From positions 1 to 36,211 of the forward strand of contig JAFAKB010000067.1 of the NCBI GenBank assembly GCA_019235885.1: 36,211 nt of DNA. The letters are read 5' to 3'. The position numbers and the translations under genes were made by a program. How positions within the stretch are numbered: the first letter of the stretch is position 1; each line of letters opens with the position of its first letter. Under the pieces are notes generated by a model. The model ran no database searches, was not told where the DNA came from, and saw nothing but the letters and a program-made list of their open reading frames with translations. Shown one piece after another: positions 20,193 to 33,123 of the stretch. This DNA comes from Candidatus Eremiobacterota bacterium (GTDB lineage: Bacteria; Vulcanimicrobiota; Vulcanimicrobiia; Vulcanimicrobiales; Vulcanimicrobiaceae).

Positions 20193-21392
20193 ATGCGTTC
20201 AGGCGACATCGTAATGCCTAAGAAACCGATACGCTATGCGACCGAGGCGACGGAGAACTTCTTCGACGTACGCGACCCGCAAAATGCACATAAGACCAGG
20301 ATCGTCGTCGACTTCTTTAAGGCATACGCGGCAATACTGCTAAGAAATGCTCCGCTTATCAACTATGTCGACCCTTTTGCAGGGCGGGGTTACTACGATC
20401 GTTGTGCTGTTGAACCGAGCCGCACGGGGCCCATTCCGGCGACGCCCCTCGAGATCCTGTCGGCAATTGACACCCCTCAATTCGCGCCGCGCACGGTAAC
20501 GTGGTTCAACGAGGGCGACCCTGATCACTTTCGCGATCTACGTGCTGCGATCGAACGCCACCCGGCCGTGCCCCGCCTCGTTCACAAGCCGAAGGTCACC
20601 AACAGTGATGTCAATGAGCGAATAACGCAGTTCTTCGCGAACCGTGTAAATGAGCCGACGTTCATGTTTGTTGACCCGTACGGATATCGCGGGTTGACTC
20701 GCCACCTTATTGCGGCCGTTCTAAAAGATTGGGGCTGCGATGTCGCGTTCTTCTTTAACTACCGTCGAGTCAATATGGCGGTCGGTCATGGGCTCTTTGA
20801 CCAGCATCTCTCAGCCATCTTTGGTGAGGAGCGTCTCGATCAGCTTCGCGAAGATTTGAAAAGCATCGAGGATCCGGACGACCGTGAAGACCTCATCTTG
20901 CACAATTTGCGCGAAGCTCTCCTGGATGTGGGCGGCCAATATTTCCTCAAGTATCGCTTCCGAACTTCAGAGGGAAGTACATCTCATCATCTCATCTTCA
21001 CGTCGAAGAAGCGGCGTGGGTTTTTGACGATGAAAGAAAAGATGTCGCAGCACAGTTGGAAGGACCCAATAGATGAAATCTCTTACTTCGAGTTCGTGCC
21101 GCAGCCGAAGCGGGCGCTTACGCTCTTTGAACCGCAGGTGATTCTGCCACCACGGAATTGGAACTACAGCGTTAAGAGTCTTGCCAACGAACTATCGCGG
21201 TGTTTCCGTGGACGCAAAGTTACCCTTGAATACTTGTATGCGGGGCATAATGATGACCTACCGTATGATTTGAAACATTATCGAGCGGCACTATGGGAAC
21301 TCAGTGACCGTGGGCTCGCGAAGCTCACCCGCGCCGATGGAAGGTCACCGCGTCGCGGGCAGTGCCCTGACGGCACAACCATTCAGTTGTGA
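20193..21392 (+). CDS. tcmP: three-Cys-motif partner protein TcmP
   Basis: A 399-residue protein (392 if it starts at the ATG at 20214, where the family-like sequence MPKKPIRYATEATENFFDVR begins). Recognisable TcmP features are NYVDPFAGRG (about residues 58-66), a Rossmann/methyltransferase-like nucleotide-binding loop, and FMFVDPYGYRGL (157-168). A winged-helix-like C-terminus follows (SVKSLANELSRCFRGRKVTL; YRAALWELSDRGLAKL). The family is defined by its neighbourhood with three-Cys-motif proteins (DUF5131, phage Gp37/Gp68), and exactly that partner lies convergent with a 10-bp overlap. The pair occurs widely in mobile and phage-related DNA. The biochemical activity is not established; a role in nucleic-acid modification is only a guess. 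Confidence 0.9.
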   Translation: MRSGDIVMPKKPIRYATEATENFFDVRDPQNAHKTRIVVDFFKAYAAILLRNAPLINYVDPFAGRGYYDRCAVEPSRTGPIPATPLEILSAIDTPQFAPRTVTWFNEGDPDHFRDLRAAIERHPAVPRLVHKPKVTNSDVNERITQFFANRVNEPTFMFVDPYGYRGLTRHLIAAVLKDWGCDVAFFFNYRRVNMAVGHGLFDQHLSAIFGEERLDQLREDLKSIEDPDDREDLILHNLREALLDVGGQYFLKYRFRTSEGSTSHHLIFTSKKRRGFLTMKEKMSQHSWKDPIDEISYFEFVPQPKRALTLFEPQVILPPRNWNYSVKSLANELSRCFRGRKVTLEYLYAGHNDDLPYDLKHYRAALWELSDRGLAKLTRADGRSPRRGQCPDGTTIQL

Positions 21393-22114
21393 CCGGCTCC
21401 TGCCGTGGCGGGCATCTCGTCCCAAGTGCGGCCGTCCAGTTCACGCCCGCTAGTGCCCTTGTGCCATTGCTTGAAAAAGAACGCGATCTTTGCGGCAACG
21501 CAGCGATCACGCAGGTCTCGCACCCAGTCGATTTCAAGCGGTCGGAACCCAGGACCTGATTCGCCGCCGGCGATCACCCAGGTAATGCCGGACAGATCAA
21601 CACGATCGGCCGGTCCGATCATCGGTTCAACGGAAAGGAAGCGAACCGGCGCATTTACGTCTCGTAGCATATCGGCGCGCCAGGCGAACTTGTCGCTCTC
21701 GACCGTTACGCCGCACCAGATGTGCGACGGGAGCTCACGGGTTTTGAAGCGTCTGCGCGCGTAGCGCCGCAATCGCTCGGGCCGCTTGGTGAGCAGTTGA
21801 TAGACGTGACGGTCGACGGTTTCCATCTGATCGAAAACCTGATCGATGTACGCGTCCGGGATGTCGACGTGAAACAGGTCGCTCATTGAGTTCACGAAGA
21901 TGAGCCGCGATCGTTTCCAAGTGGCTGGCCGCCCAAGCATCCGCGGCCGTAGTTGCACGTCGAAGCCGTTTTCGAAGTAGTTGCCCGGGACGCCGCGCCA
22001 GCGTTCTGCAAAGCGCTCAGCGTAGCAGTGGTCGCACCCGGCGGAGATCTTCGTGCAGCCTGTCGTTGGGTTCCAGGTGGAATTCGTCCACTCGATGGTG
22101 CTTTGGACGGCCAT
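21383..22114 (-). CDS. three-Cys-motif protein, DUF5131 / phage Gp37-Gp68 family
   Basis: 243 residues. The N-terminus (TIEWTNSTWNPTTGC, then SAGCDHCYAERFAER) carries the family's C-X6-C-X2-C motif (Cys20, Cys27, Cys30), probably a metal or Fe-S site. The spacing differs from the CX3CX2C of classical radical-SAM enzymes, to which the family has been compared. Other conserved segments are FVNSMSDLFHVDIPD, YQLLTKRPERLRRYA, HIWCGVTVES, RFLSVEPMIGP and WVIAGGESGPGFRP, ending with FFFKQWHKGTSGRELDG. AAGGAG lies 12 bp before the ATG at 22114. Its 3' end overlaps that of tcmP. It is transcribed from the palindromic divergent promoter at 22146-22188. Confidence 0.92.
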   Translation of the reverse strand: MAVQSTIEWTNSTWNPTTGCTKISAGCDHCYAERFAERWRGVPGNYFENGFDVQLRPRMLGRPATWKRSRLIFVNSMSDLFHVDIPDAYIDQVFDQMETVDRHVYQLLTKRPERLRRYARRRFKTRELPSHIWCGVTVESDKFAWRADMLRDVNAPVRFLSVEPMIGPADRVDLSGITWVIAGGESGPGFRPLEIDWVRDLRDRCVAAKIAFFFKQWHKGTSGRELDGRTWDEMPATAGAGHN

Positions 22115-23029: not shown

Positions 23030-23324
23030 AAACAATCTCCGAAGTGCGAGCGTTGGTCTGAGCTCATTGAATCACAAGGCGATGCCAACGGGTTGGCACA
23101 CTAAATTTCTTGCACCGCCGAAATTTGCCTTACGACGGGCGTGTGCTGTTCTCAGAGGCACCCAGCTTCGACAGCGAGAGGCAAGGAAGCCATGGCCGGG
23201 CGCGGCGCACCTGGCCTGCCGCGTTGAGGTACCGTCCTACGCCGTCGGAATTTTTGGTCTGGTAGGCGATCGCGACGGACGCCGCAGGCACCAGCGAGCG
23301 TGGCGGCGCCGAGGCGAGTACCCT

Positions 23325-23392
23325 GGGTACCATCGGGACACCCGCCGTAGTCAGCGGAGCGAGAGGCGCCGAGCAATCAGCGCCCCTCCTCG
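23325..23392 (+). repeat. structured 68-bp repeat, copy A
   Basis: Matches copy B (31013-31080) over 68 bp without gaps, with 55 identical positions. It begins GGTACCATC, contains CCGCCGTAGTCAGCGG (a 4-bp stem with an 8-nt loop) and ends in a GC-rich hairpin GAGAGGCGC...GCGCCCCTC with one mismatch. Relative to copy B one stem pair changes T-A to C-G, which suggests selection on structure. Nothing else gene-like was found in 23030-23475. Confidence 0.6.
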
Positions 23393-23475
23393 TTTACCGG
23401 CCTCAGCGGGAATTAGCCCCATTGCTGGCCAAATATTTGGCGCTCTCCAAAACTCCACGGAAGGCGGGTTTCCAG

Positions 23476-24312
23476 ATGGATCTTATTTCCGCGCGCGCAA
23501 GCGTTCCTGAGCAGCGCGCCATTCTGGCACACTACGAGCGAGTCGCGCCGCTCATCGCGTCGAACTTTCCGCATGCTCCGCTCGTGTTTTCGTACTATCC
23601 GCATGGCCTCGGGACGGAGCCGGCATTTTCCAGCAACCATGATGAGCTGCCGCACTCCGTGCCGCCCGTGACGGTCACCACCTCGAGCGGCCGGCACGTC
23701 TACCCCGGCTGCGCTGTCAACACGATCCTCTACTACGTTCACATCGGCGCCGTCGGCGTCCATTCCTGGACGCCCGCGCCGAGCGATCCCGACGCCGTCG
23801 CATTCGCCCGCATTCTCCTCAAGCCGATTGCCGGCGCGACACAAGCGCAGCTCCGCGAAGCGCTCCTCGTCCTTCGCTCCGCGCTTCAACTGCCTGCCCT
23901 CGACGCGATCCCGCTCTTCGAAGGCTCGGACGCCGCGCTGTTCATTCCGTTTGCCGATGCTCCGTCGTACGAAGCGGTTCGAACGTGGCTTCACAAGGTT
24001 CTCGCGACCGCGCTCACCGAGCACCCCGAACTCCTCGTGGCGCGAGCGAAGCCTCACGAACAGCGAACGGCGCCGCGCGTCGAGGTCACCGTCAGCTCAA
24101 ATGCGCCCGGACAGCACAGCCGGCTGCCGTACTCGCTCACCGGCGAGCCCGGTCTGCCTATGGTGACGCCCTTCGATTGGGCTGAGCTCGAGACGCTTCG
24201 AAACGGCGAATTCACAGCCGCCAACGCGGACGACCGCCTCGCTCAGGGCGACCTCTTCGCGAGCCTTACCGCAAAGTTGGCCGGCCAGCGCTTCGCCGGC
24301 GTGAAGGCCTGA
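23476..24312 (+). CDS. LigD polymerase-domain (AEP fold) homologue lacking catalytic residues
   Basis: 278 residues from the ATG at 23476 (GGAAGGCGGG upstream); a TTG at 23422 is an alternative. The sequence follows the NHEJ polymerase domain of LigD end to end: HYERVAPLIASNFPHAPLVF, the SSGRHVYPG / YYVHIGAVGVHSWTP region, LFEGSDAALFIPFADAPS, and RLPYSLTGEPGLPMVTPFDW. LigD polymerases use a DLDP Asp pair, a KRxP lysine, a SGSKGLH motif and a third Asp in VFVDWSQN. Here these read AFARILLKP, FSYYPHG, EGSDAALF and VEVTVSSN, so every catalytic and nucleotide-handling residue is gone. A DNA-end-binding rather than polymerising role is inferred. The nuclease gene follows after 57 bp (30 bp to its earliest start) on the same strand, so the two likely work together. 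No Ku or ligase is in the window. Confidence 0.75.
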   Translation: MDLISARASVPEQRAILAHYERVAPLIASNFPHAPLVFSYYPHGLGTEPAFSSNHDELPHSVPPVTVTTSSGRHVYPGCAVNTILYYVHIGAVGVHSWTPAPSDPDAVAFARILLKPIAGATQAQLREALLVLRSALQLPALDAIPLFEGSDAALFIPFADAPSYEAVRTWLHKVLATALTEHPELLVARAKPHEQRTAPRVEVTVSSNAPGQHSRLPYSLTGEPGLPMVTPFDWAELETLRNGEFTAANADDRLAQGDLFASLTAKLAGQRFAGVKA

Positions 24313-24369
24313 GCGGCACCGCTCTTCTGGTTCCGAAGCGCCGTGCAAGTCGAAGAAGAGTCCTTCCGC

Positions 24370-25479
24370 ATGATCGACGCCGAGCGACTGCGACGCCTGA
24401 GCGAACGCGCTGCCGCGCCACCGCATCAGCGCGATTGGCGCGACCAGCGCGGCCACATCATCGACGCTGCGCTCGTCGTGCTGGCCGACGGCCGCCCACG
24501 CTCAGGCGATGAGATCTGGACCAACGCCCGCCGGCGTCACCTGCTGGCGCACACCCAGCAGAAGGACGTCTACATCGCGCTCGTGGGCTACATCGAGCGG
24601 CACAGCGGACAGGGCCGGTCGTGCACGATCGTCCAGGACGTGGACCGCCGCTTCCGCCTGAACCACCCTCTCGACGACTGGCCCGATCCGAAGCGCCCGC
24701 TCCCCACGCGCGGTCCCATCGCAAACTTCGAATCGCTCCGCCGCGAGCTGGAGAAGACACAGCGCGGCGCCGATGCGACGGCCTACGAGCTCGCCGTCTG
24801 CCGCAGCTTCCAGGCCGTCGGCTTCGTCGTGCAGCACGTTGGTGGAAACGGCGCGCCCGACGGCGTCCTTGACGCACCGCTCGGACCACTCGCGTACCGG
24901 GCCATGCTCGAATGCAAGCGCGCGAAGCAGCACTGGGTGCTCGACCCGGACGCCGCGGAAGCGGCGCGCTACCGCGAGCCTTACGGCGCGAAGTACTCCG
25001 CCATGGTGGGACCGGCATTCGACCAAGGCGTCAACCTGCGCGACGAGCTCATCGCTCATCGCGTGAGCTGCTGGACCACCGACGACATTATCCAATGCCT
25101 GGAAAACTCATATGACCCGGTCGAAATGGAAGTGCTCTTCGCGCCGGGCTTCGTGCGCCAGCACATCGACGACGTACTCTGGGAGCGAAGTCACGGTGCT
25201 CCGAAGCGCACCGCGGTCGTCTGCGACTTGCTCCGCGAGAACGCCGCGCGCGTCCAACTGCCGCCGCGCGCAAACCCAGCCGACGCCCCGCGCCTCGATA
25301 TCAACGCGGCGCTACTTCTGGTGGACGGCTCGCTAACCGCGCTCGGGGCGCACGTCCCATGCACGCATGCCGACATCGAGGCGGCCTTCCGTCACCTCAC
25401 CGAGCCGCTCGTAGCGGAAGCAGTCTATGTGGACACCTCACAAGACGCCATCGCCTTCCGCCACGTTGTTCAGCCCTAG
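24370..25479 (+). CDS. HARE-HTH plus PD-(D/E)XK restriction-type nuclease
   Basis: 369 residues from the ATG at 24370 with a weak GAAGAAGAG site upstream; a GTG at 24343 is possible. Residues about 25-95 (HIIDAALVVLADGRPRSGDE, then YIALVGYIERHSGQGRSC and DVDRRFRLN) look like a HARE-HTH winged helix, a module often fused to restriction endonucleases. A linker leads to a PD-(D/E)XK nuclease core: an acidic helix (ATAYELAVCRSFQAVGF), GAPDGVLD and MLECKRAKQ, providing Asp, Glu and Lys in the correct order, so the catalytic site looks intact. The last ~130 residues form an unrecognised domain that may specify target or partner. It forms a two-gene unit with the inactive LigD-polymerase-like gene. 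No methyltransferase is adjacent, so this is not an ordinary type II system. Confidence 0.75.
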   Translation: MIDAERLRRLSERAAAPPHQRDWRDQRGHIIDAALVVLADGRPRSGDEIWTNARRRHLLAHTQQKDVYIALVGYIERHSGQGRSCTIVQDVDRRFRLNHPLDDWPDPKRPLPTRGPIANFESLRRELEKTQRGADATAYELAVCRSFQAVGFVVQHVGGNGAPDGVLDAPLGPLAYRAMLECKRAKQHWVLDPDAAEAARYREPYGAKYSAMVGPAFDQGVNLRDELIAHRVSCWTTDDIIQCLENSYDPVEMEVLFAPGFVRQHIDDVLWERSHGAPKRTAVVCDLLRENAARVQLPPRANPADAPRLDINAALLLVDGSLTALGAHVPCTHADIEAAFRHLTEPLVAEAVYVDTSQDAIAFRHVVQP

Positions 25480-25757: not shown

Positions 25758-26528
25758 ATGCAGTCCTATACCCCGGAAATGCGGATTGTGGCCTTTATCG
25801 ACGTCCTCGGCTTTCGAGAACAGACAAAGCGGAGGCTCGGCGATCCCGCGCTCCTGAAAGCGCTGGACGGCGCGCTTATGTACACAGACCGCCTGCTCTT
25901 TGAACCCTACGATGGATACACTCCCGATGCGAGAATGTTCAGCGATTGTATCTGTGTGTCAAGCCCGTTCGAACCCGATAACGTTGTAAAGTTCACGTAC
26001 ACGATCGAGGCGCTACAAATGAACCTCGCCTGTTGCGGTGTCTTCGTGAGAGGCGGGATTGCGATTGGTCGGCATTTCGAGAATCCACGCATGATCGTCT
26101 CCGAAGCACTGATTGACGCGTACTTGTTGGAGAATGAGGCTATGTTTCCGCGGATCGTCGCTTCGCCGGCAACCGTCACCCGCTTGCTGGATATCCTTCA
26201 ATACGCGGGTCCAGACCACTGGGGCGCTGGTCCCCACGGCCTTGTCAATGCACCAACCGCCCACTTTCGTACCGATCGCGACGGTAAACCCTTCATTTCG
26301 TATCTCATGTCGCTTTACCGTATCGACCGCTCGTCTATCGTAGATGAATACATCATGCGGCACAGGGACGCCGTTGAAGCGTGGTTGTTCGAAGGACATG
26401 CTTCGAGTTTGCCTGCACACATCACCACAAAGCACCAGTGGGCACGCAATTATCACAACGACATGATGTGTGATTATTTTGGGACAGATAAGATGGATGC
26501 GACCGAATTCATTCCCGAGAGTAAGTGA
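25758..26528 (+). CDS. class III nucleotide-cyclase-like protein
   Basis: 256 residues from the ATG at 25758; the longer open frame to 25359 overlaps the nuclease gene and is not used. The order of strands and motifs fits the class III adenylate/guanylate cyclase fold: RIVAFIDVLGF with Asp15, MFSDCICVSSP with Asp63 (48 residues apart, close to the usual spacing of the two metal-binding Asp residues), then VFVRGGIAIGRHF where cyclases have a RhGIhxG strand. The phrase SEALIDAYLLENEAMFPRI recurs in a large uncharacterised family of FID(V/I/L)LGF proteins that I recall from accessory DNA. The substrate-specifying residues and transition-state Arg cannot be assigned, so activity is uncertain. Pycsar cyclases share this fold, but no effector gene adjoins it. 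Confidence 0.6.
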   Translation: MQSYTPEMRIVAFIDVLGFREQTKRRLGDPALLKALDGALMYTDRLLFEPYDGYTPDARMFSDCICVSSPFEPDNVVKFTYTIEALQMNLACCGVFVRGGIAIGRHFENPRMIVSEALIDAYLLENEAMFPRIVASPATVTRLLDILQYAGPDHWGAGPHGLVNAPTAHFRTDRDGKPFISYLMSLYRIDRSSIVDEYIMRHRDAVEAWLFEGHASSLPAHITTKHQWARNYHNDMMCDYFGTDKMDATEFIPESK

Positions 26529-30898: not shown

Positions 30899-30972
30899 GC
30901 GCCCGTAGCTCAACTGGATAGAGCACGCTGCTGACTACGGCGGAGATGAGGGTTCGAATCCCTTCGGGCGCG
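30899..30972 (+). tRNA. tRNA with anticodon GAC as folded (isotype uncertain)
   Basis: A full cloverleaf folds: acceptor GCGCCCG/CGGGCGC, D-arm GCTC-AACTGGATA-GAGC, anticodon stem CGCTG/CGGCG, five variable bases, T-arm GAGGG-TTCGAAT-CCCTT, discriminator G, no encoded CCA. The 7-nt loop CTGACTA gives anticodon GAC (valine), but position 37 would be T, which is highly unusual. The acceptor stem and D-loop look like arginine tRNAs. The anticodon arm contains 15 nt identical to the complement of the repeat placed 57 bp further on, so the arm may have been altered by recombination or the gene may be a degenerate or special tRNA. Confidence 0.8.
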
Positions 30973-31012
30973 ACCCGCGACGCGGTGAAACTTGACGGGA
31001 CTAGTCACCCCG

Positions 31013-31080
31013 CGGTACCATCAAGGCATCCGCCGTAGTCAGCGGCCAGAGGGGCGTCGAGCAATCGACGCCCCTCGTCG
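31013..31080 (+). repeat. structured 68-bp repeat, copy B
   Basis: The second copy of the element at 23325-23392 (55 of 68 positions identical, no gaps, same orientation). It lies 40 bp behind the tRNA. TCCGCCGTAGTCAGC (31029-31043) is the exact reverse complement of tRNA bases 30930-30944. The element ends in the perfect hairpin annotated at 31049-31076. Confidence 0.65.
31049..31076. terminator. 12-bp hairpin with GCAA tetraloop
   Basis: GAGGGGCGTCGA (31049-31060) and TCGACGCCCCTC (31065-31076) pair perfectly around GCAA, a stable GNRA-type loop. It lies between the tRNA and the convergent VOC gene and probably terminates both, though it lacks a T-tract. Confidence 0.65.
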
Positions 31081-31101
31081 TCCGGCCGCCTATCGTGAGC
31101 G

Positions 31102-31614: not shown

Positions 31615-33123
31615 ATGGCCGCCACGCTCCATTTCGGTGAGCTCGTGCGAGACGGCGAGAGACTGCTCGACCGCGGTCGTCGCTTGGCGGGCGGCCTGTA
31701 TCGCCTCGGCCTGCGCGAAGGCGACGTCGTCGCGGTGCTATTGCGCAACGACCCGGTGTACGCCGACGTAATGCACGCCTGCCGCGCCGCCGGCACCTAC
31801 TACTGCACGCTGAACTGGCACTTCACCGCCGCGGAGCTGGAGTTCATCCTGACCGACTGCGGCGCGCGCGTCGTCATCGGACACGCCGATTTGCTGCAAG
31901 CCGCGGCGTCCGCGCTGCCCGGCGGCACCCAGGTGTTTGCCGTCGGTTCCGGCAGCGCGTTCGCGGACTACGAGAATTGGCTCTCGGTGGCGCCGCCGTA
32001 CGACGGTCCAATCGTCGCGCCTCGCGGTCACATGGCGTACACGTCCGGCACGACGGGCCGCCCGAAGGGCGTGCGCCGCGCGCCCGTTCCGCTGGACCAG
32101 CTGCCGGCGCACCTAGCCGCGCTGCGCGCGCTCGTGCGCGCCGTGTACGGCATCGAAGACGGGTGCCGTGCGCTGCTCTCCGCGCCGCTCTACCACAGCG
32201 CGCCGGCGTCGATCGCCTCGAACGCGCTGCTGTACGGCGAACGGCTCGTCCTCGCCGAAAGGTTCGACGCCGAGCAAACCCTCGCGCTGATCGAGCGCCA
32301 TCGCATCGATGTCGCGTACCTCACGCCGACGATGTACGTGCGCATGATCCGCCTCTCCGGCGCGGTCTGGAACCGCTACGACGTCTCGTCGCTGCGCTTC
32401 ATCGCTTCGACCGGTGCGCCGTGCCCGCCAGACGTGAAGCGCGCGATCATCGAACGGCTCGGCCCGGTGATCCACGAGACATACGCCTCGACGGAAGCCG
32501 GCCTGATCACGCTGGCGTCGAGCGAAGACGCGCTGGCGCGCCCGGGTACCGCGGGCCGTCCGGTCGGAGCAGCGCAGCTGCGCATTCTCGACGACGACGG
32601 CCGCGAGTGCGCACCCGGCGAGATCGGCACGATCTACGCGCGCCAGCCCGCGTACGCCGACTTCACGTATCAGAACCTGCCCGACGCTCGTCGTGCGATC
32701 GAGCGCGACGGCCTGATCACGCTCGGCGACGTCGGCTACGTCGACGCCGACGGCTATCTGTTCGTGTGCGACCGCTCGGCGGACATGATCCTGTCCGGCG
32801 GCGTGAACATCTATCCGGCCGAGATCGAGCACGCGCTCCTGCAGCTCCCCGGCGTGCACGACTGCGCCGTCGTCGGCCTCCCCGATCCCGAATACGGCGA
32901 ACGATTGCACGCCGTGGTCCAGCCGGAACCGGGCGCGGTGCTCGATTACGCCGCGATGCAGTTCGCGCTTCGCGAAGTGCTTGCCGGATTCAAGGTCCCG
33001 CGCACCTTCTCCACCACCGGAGCGCTCCCGCGCGACGACAACGGCAAGGTCGCGCGCGCCCGCGTCCGCGCCGATCTGCTCGCAGCGCTAGGCGCCGCTA
33101 CGGCTTGCCGTAGTTCGTCGTGA
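31615..33123 (+). CDS. acyl-CoA synthetase (AMP-forming ligase family)
   Basis: A 502-residue member of the ANL superfamily, which activates carboxylic acids as acyl-AMP and transfers them to CoA. The P-loop-like motif YTSGTTGRPKGV is at residues 142-153. Further motifs are STGAPCPPDVKRA, HETYASTEAGLIT (A5), LGDVGYVDADGYLFVCDRSA (A7) and MILSGGVNIYPAEIEHAL (A8). The C-terminal catalytic lysine context is RDDNGKVARARV. Chain-length or aromatic preference is not readable. No SD-like site precedes the ATG. Its 3' end overlaps the end of sorB on the other strand by 26 bp, and no beta-oxidation gene is adjacent. Confidence 0.9.
   Translation: MAATLHFGELVRDGERLLDRGRRLAGGLYRLGLREGDVVAVLLRNDPVYADVMHACRAAGTYYCTLNWHFTAAELEFILTDCGARVVIGHADLLQAAASALPGGTQVFAVGSGSAFADYENWLSVAPPYDGPIVAPRGHMAYTSGTTGRPKGVRRAPVPLDQLPAHLAALRALVRAVYGIEDGCRALLSAPLYHSAPASIASNALLYGERLVLAERFDAEQTLALIERHRIDVAYLTPTMYVRMIRLSGAVWNRYDVSSLRFIASTGAPCPPDVKRAIIERLGPVIHETYASTEAGLITLASSEDALARPGTAGRPVGAAQLRILDDDGRECAPGEIGTIYARQPAYADFTYQNLPDARRAIERDGLITLGDVGYVDADGYLFVCDRSADMILSGGVNIYPAEIEHALLQLPGVHDCAVVGLPDPEYGERLHAVVQPEPGAVLDYAAMQFALREVLAGFKVPRTFSTTGALPRDDNGKVARARVRADLLAALGAATACRSSS

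Follow-up and report, generated by a model that had tools for sequence, protein, structure and literature searches.

Two adjacent genes on the plus strand, at positions 23476–25479 of the window (the whole stretch of 36,211 nucleotides analysed here, from a contig of a Candidatus Eremiobacterota bacterium), pair a catalytically dead polymerase domain of the LigD type with an intact PD-(D/E)XK nuclease. The window pair is a member of a split subgroup within a family that is mostly fused, in which every catalytic position of the polymerase has been lost, the nuclease centre is complete, the linkage is conserved and both parts are under purifying selection. The reading preferred here, which we regard as an evenly balanced proposition, is that of a self-sufficient restriction-type nuclease in which the dead polymerase domain would serve as a recognition or regulatory module.

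The first gene of the pair, an open reading frame confirmed from its ATG at 23476 to its stop at 24312, carries the following features.

23476–24312, plus strand: gene 1, a catalytically dead LigD-type polymerase (PolDom/AEP) protein of 278 amino acids, from PF21686, Foldseek and VIA
23521–24255, plus strand: PolDom-like domain of gene 1, from the profile match
23815–23823, plus strand: site of the DLD metal-binding motif, now Leu-Leu-Lys, from the alignment with 11 canonical domains
23920–23940, plus strand: site of the SGSxGxH motif, now EGSDAAL, from the same 11-domain alignment
24088–24090, plus strand: site of the third catalytic Asp, now Thr, from the alignment of 32 relatives

Profile and fold both identify gene 1 as a LigD polymerase domain, in which no catalytic position has kept its residue. 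Residues 16–260 match the LigD_Prim-Pol profile PF21686 at 81 bits (E 1.3e-22; cut-off 27.4), a profile that is also matched by 29 of 29 relatives, and a profile built from 29 gene 1 relatives finds the LigD of M. tuberculosis at E 6e-29. The score against TIGR02778, a model of the active enzyme, is 53.5 bits and falls below the curated cut-off of 214.7. The predicted structure has a mean pLDDT of 55 and is confident only in its core, in blocks of 71–89 at residues 111–190; Foldseek with this model gives 16 matches at E < 1e-3, every one a polymerase domain of LigD or Prim-PolC, and VIA scores highest against 2r9l (Z 15.9). A dead LigD-polymerase homologue with the AEP fold is what the initial annotation had proposed from the sequence, and the profile, the fold and the alignment all bear this out.

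The loss of the active site is a property of the family and not of the window copy alone. When 32 dead relatives are aligned with the 11 canonical LigD polymerase domains, none keeps either Asp of the DLD pair, the position reading Leu-Leu-Lys in the window and Leu-Leu-Glu in most relatives. The SG..G.H motif reads EG..A.L in the window, with neither its Ser nor its His kept in any of the 32, and the Lys immediately preceding the motif is likewise kept in none of them. The column of the third Asp, occupied by Thr in the window, holds Asp in at most 4 of 32. Of the framework, N, G, PY and W are retained. In the canonical M. tuberculosis enzyme the 5'-phosphate pocket is formed by Asn13, Lys16 and Lys26 (PMC8656161). 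The Asn column is kept in one of the 32 dead copies and the Lys26 equivalent also in one, the segment with Lys16 is mostly absent, and the median pI is 6.5 against 8.8 in the 11 canonical domains, the former basic charge being gone. Recognition of 5'-phosphates, which had been suggested as the simplest function of the first gene, is not supported in view of these changes, and end sensing by the dead domain is possible but now without support from the sequence.

Compared with the closest relative, at a protein identity of 77–80%, the window genes have dN/dS values of 0.17 (gene 1) and 0.165 (gene 2), and both are therefore held by purifying selection. Together with the dead sites in 32 of 32 relatives, this agrees with the earlier proposal that selection acts on a non-catalytic role. 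In a tree of polymerase domains the dead copies form one group separate from the canonical ones (SH-aLRT 100), where the root was placed on the canonical group and the direction of change comes from catalysis and not from the tree.

The second gene begins 57 bases downstream of the first and on the same strand.

24370–25479, plus strand: gene 2, a nuclease of 369 amino acids from the ATG at 24370, with a GTG at 24343 as alternative start, from the open reading frame
24436–24666, plus strand: N-terminal region resembling a winged helix, with a basic charge (median pI 9.6 in the family), from VIA and charge
24709–25167, plus strand: predicted PD-(D/E)XK nuclease domain of the FokI/HindIII/Mrr type, from VIA, Foldseek and Mrr_cat matches in relatives
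24787–24789, plus strand: conserved Glu on helix 1 of the nuclease, invariant in 21 of 21
24856–24864, plus strand: PDG with the first catalytic Asp, the Asp invariant in 21 of 21
24910–24918, plus strand: ECK catalytic motif, invariant in 21 of 21
25180–25467, plus strand: C-terminal winged-helix-like domain, from VIA

The E...PDG...ECK centre of gene 2 is intact, as had been read from the letters, and its E, D, E and K are invariant in all 21 family nucleases, corresponding to Glu139, Asp163, Glu180 and Lys182 when residues are counted from the one after the Met of ATG 24370. The protein has no Pfam match of its own in a Pfam profile search; Mrr_cat (PF04471) gives weak matches in 18 of 21 relatives, with a best value of 9.1e-8 and its cut-off exceeded by one relative (L074), and none in the window protein. 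FokI is touched by the family profile at E 0.025, and a model of low to middling confidence (pLDDT 61) finds FokI in Foldseek at E 2e-5. With VIA, residues 113–275 of the model match HindIII (Z 12.0), FokI (11.2) and Nt.BspD6I (10.8), and residues 274–364 match the cullin WHB and other winged helices with Z about 9. The match of residues 24–98 to ScpB (Z 7.7) is weaker and lies on a low-confidence part of the model. Across the nuclease family, a basic N-terminal region precedes an acidic cleavage domain. On these predicted structures, gene 2 holds as a complete FokI/Mrr-type nuclease centre between two winged-helix-like regions. The initial annotation had assigned the N-terminal region to the HARE-HTH family, an assignment that did not survive, as PF05066 has no match at E ≤ 1 among the 21 members and none in the window genome; a winged-helix-like region is present at that place, with the family model unmatched.

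That the two genes form a functional unit had been proposed from this one locus, and conserved co-occurrence elsewhere, mostly as gene fusions, speaks for it. Among 149 Eremiobacterota genomes, 30 contain 44 dead-polymerase copies, with 26 in frame with a nuclease (three of which enter the nuclease only partway, at a frameshift or contig end), eight next to a nuclease on the same strand, at most 81 bases apart (for one of these the nuclease is a short fragment where the contig ends), five within 1.6 kb and five alone. Fusion or same-strand adjacency thus accounts for 34 of 44, with fusions and tight pairs found in either gene order. Of the six LigD-type domains in the window genome itself, two are canonical and four are dead; besides the window copy, the second dead copy lies directly 3' of a nuclease gene of the same family, the third is followed by two tandem nuclease genes, and the fourth lies 1 kb from a nuclease gene on the opposite strand. 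The unit is not due to chance, because it recurs as a fusion or a neighbouring pair across 30 genomes and dN/dS is 0.17 for both genes. At individual loci, a tandem nuclease copy lies behind the pair (L071, 10577–11710) and second dead-polymerase copies lie beside the first (L095 at 10797; L030, 735–1436). At L108 (8291–9523), a nuclease of the same family has another N-terminal extension in place of the polymerase domain, which suggests that front modules are exchangeable in this nuclease family.

Searches beyond the phylum returned little. In 299 genomes of Bacillota, the phylum of locus L009, the best match of 119 bits is in the range of canonical domains and the fusion was not found. A wide contig scan with a single-protein query reaches close relatives only, so that the phyla effectively covered are Eremiobacterota and Bacillota. 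In viral contigs neither the fused profile nor a canonical-domain search had a match, and the nuclease search gave a single distant nuclease match of 24% identity. In plasmid and phage collections, the best-listed matches to the fused query cover the polymerase part only, at below 60% identity, and the nuclease query gave one match at E 0.07. Across the phage, viral and plasmid collections, no relative was confirmed beyond canonical LigD and the one distant nuclease match.

Since the dead domain derives from the LigD of non-homologous end joining (NHEJ), the unit might be a DNA-repair accessory, in which the dead domain would dock on Ku or on broken ends and bring a nuclease that trims the ends for NHEJ. 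Most carrier genomes, 25 of 30, encode Ku, and in the window genome it lies beside a canonical LigD polymerase. However, Ku is missing from four genomes that are at least 95% complete and have the fusion (G035, G081, G083 and G085), and three of these (G035, G081 and G085) are also without a match to a canonical or other LigD-type polymerase. A housekeeping repair factor would not be expected to occur so patchily or in several copies per genome, and the dead domain no longer has the 5'-phosphate pocket. An obligate role in NHEJ is therefore unlikely given the four near-complete genomes without Ku, and an accessory role as a whole is doubtful.

The members that stand alone bear on another arrangement, similar to a toxin and its antidote, in which the dead polymerase domain would restrain the nuclease until a trigger frees it. 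The five copies without a nuclease on their contig all belong to genus g36. At the four of their loci that were examined (L100, L101, L103 and L104) the solo genes have common neighbours and, with a dN/dS of about 0.25, are under purifying selection, and three genomes of the genus with a solo dead polymerase have no nuclease homologue at all. Conservation in one genus is what an orphan antidote could show; the two gene orders found among fusions and tight pairs, and a dead domain without its former basic charge, would also suit such a pairing. Yet in 26 copies the nuclease is part of the same chain, and about 20 further nuclease matches, fragments among them, lack their own polymerase partner, so that the antidote would be dispensable there; restraint of this kind appears quite unlikely. 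The g36 solo genes, with their conserved order and three nuclease-free genomes, mean that the dead domain can have a use that is independent of the nuclease.

The surroundings of the window pair have changed more than the pair. DNA identity to the closest relative genome covers 23455–25460 and resumes only at 33096, several of the genes in between being located elsewhere in that genome, and the pair was thus kept while its near neighbours changed. Among 41 neighbourhoods of the family there is no conserved third gene, and no cognate methyltransferase, the trait of type II restriction-modification, was seen beside the nuclease. Models of defence genes gave about four clear matches among 140 neighbouring proteins (a type III methyltransferase, a cytosine methyltransferase, AbiEi and AbiEii) and no specific one among 130 control proteins, an enrichment that is not significant (p=0.12) and a tally that is our own reading of the match tables. 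The defence association of the family is suggestive only. With the PADLOC 2023 models, gene 1 has no match and gene 2 only REase_II at E 0.032.

Other neighbours were recorded as well. The window holds at 20193–22114 a Three-Cys-motif partner protein TcmP (TIGR04474) and a convergent DUF5131 protein, which match the candidate defence pair PDC-M30/M41, and at 25839–26525 a protein with FIDVLGF and FSDCI motifs and no Pfam match, a relative of which lies near the dead-polymerase locus L093. A gene for a thermolysin-like protease, placed by us in family M4 from its sequence, adjoins the dead polymerase gene at L072 (8807–9832), L085, L093 (7530–9113) and L105.

A direct repeat of 73 bases (23321–23393 and 31009–31081, 81% identical) flanks a stretch of 7.7 kb with the pair, and its second copy begins 37 bases past a tRNA-Val (30899–30972). 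The repeat holds CCGC-CGTAGTCA-GCGG, the loop of which is antisense to the anticodon loop of tRNA-Val, and then a GC-rich hairpin; it has no match in Rfam, and at one mismatch the genome contains only two copies besides the tRNA itself. Such a repeat would be at home around a selfish or mobile-element nuclease of a homing-like kind, in which the polymerase domain would be carried along or help in docking on DNA, and the multiple scattered copies, fragments and tandem duplications, with neighbours that differ at most loci, point the same way. Against this, selection on both parts is strongly purifying, the window pair and its closest relative lie near the same conserved block, and no transposase or integrase is found in conserved association, all of which leaves a selfish element improbable.

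Patchy distribution, multiple copies per genome, tandem copies and fragments and the lack of a conserved third gene fit a stand-alone mobile gene of the restriction type. Taken with the likeness to restriction nucleases, the patchy presence and copy number lead us to favour a role against foreign DNA. Counted for the restriction-type reading were the conserved linkage, the dead sites in 32 of 32, the live E/D/E/K in 21 of 21, the purifying selection, the fold, the DNA identity that in the nearby sequence is confined to the pair, and the TcmP/DUF5131 candidate defence pair in the window. Counted against it were the non-significant defence enrichment, the solo g36 genes, the partnerless nucleases, and the lack of confirmed phage, viral or plasmid relatives. 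The family is modular, with the dead LigD polymerase domain followed in order by a putative winged helix, the PD-(D/E)XK nuclease and a second putative winged helix. The basic N-terminal winged helix would hold double-stranded DNA and the FokI/Mrr-like domain would cut the DNA so held. The dead polymerase domain, which would add no nucleotides, may act as a module for recognition or switching, which would set the time or place of cleavage, and the most likely use would be the cutting of foreign or aberrant DNA. A more specific form, in which the dead domain recognises a DNA structure of the invader or a partner protein and licenses the fused nuclease, making this a new type of single-protein defence system in Eremiobacterota, is put forward only tentatively.

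Given the many fusions, there is little doubt that the nuclease and this dead paralogue of a repair enzyme act jointly. No description of a dead polymerase combined with a PD-(D/E)XK nuclease was found in the open-licence papers searched. To judge from sequence, the nuclease itself belongs to a known type; what appears new is its combination with a dead polymerase domain of putative regulatory role. If the defence reading is true, this is a new module for PD-(D/E)XK restriction nucleases. One protein with a dead and a live domain is also a system for asking what a non-synthesising polymerase fold senses or controls, and the family marks the poorly known phylum Eremiobacterota as a source of new putative DNA-cutting enzymes.

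Several known systems offer comparisons. Hachiman HamAB (PMC12278908) follows a similar idea, in which an effector nuclease is coupled to a protein that senses DNA integrity, but there the sensor is a helicase, with no sequence relation to the dead-polymerase unit shown. The LigD polymerase domain and Prim-PolC (PF21686; PDB 2IRU, 2R9L, 5OP0 and 6SA0) are alike in the full-length profile, the fold and the framework residues, whereas the dead family is without the DLD Asp pair, the third Asp, the SG..G.H motif and the 5'-phosphate pocket, is acidic instead of basic, lacks a segment of about 20 residues in about half of its members, and is partnered with a nuclease and not with a ligase or Ku. 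Fusion endonucleases of type IV restriction that combine a winged helix with a PD-(D/E)XK domain are already known (PMC11037411); like these and the Mrr_cat nucleases (PF04471), the unit appears to do so without a methyltransferase, but the dead polymerase domain is an addition to that plan and the window protein has no Mrr_cat match. FokI, Nt.BspD6I and HindIII have in common with gene 2 the PD-(D/E)XK cleavage fold (Z 10.8 to 12.0), and FokI has a winged-helix part ahead of its cleavage domain, as is predicted for gene 2, with VDTK where gene 2 has ECK. In contrast to these three, gene 2 adds a putative C-terminal winged helix and has no cognate methyltransferase in sight, and the polymerase domain takes the place of a known sequence-recognition module.
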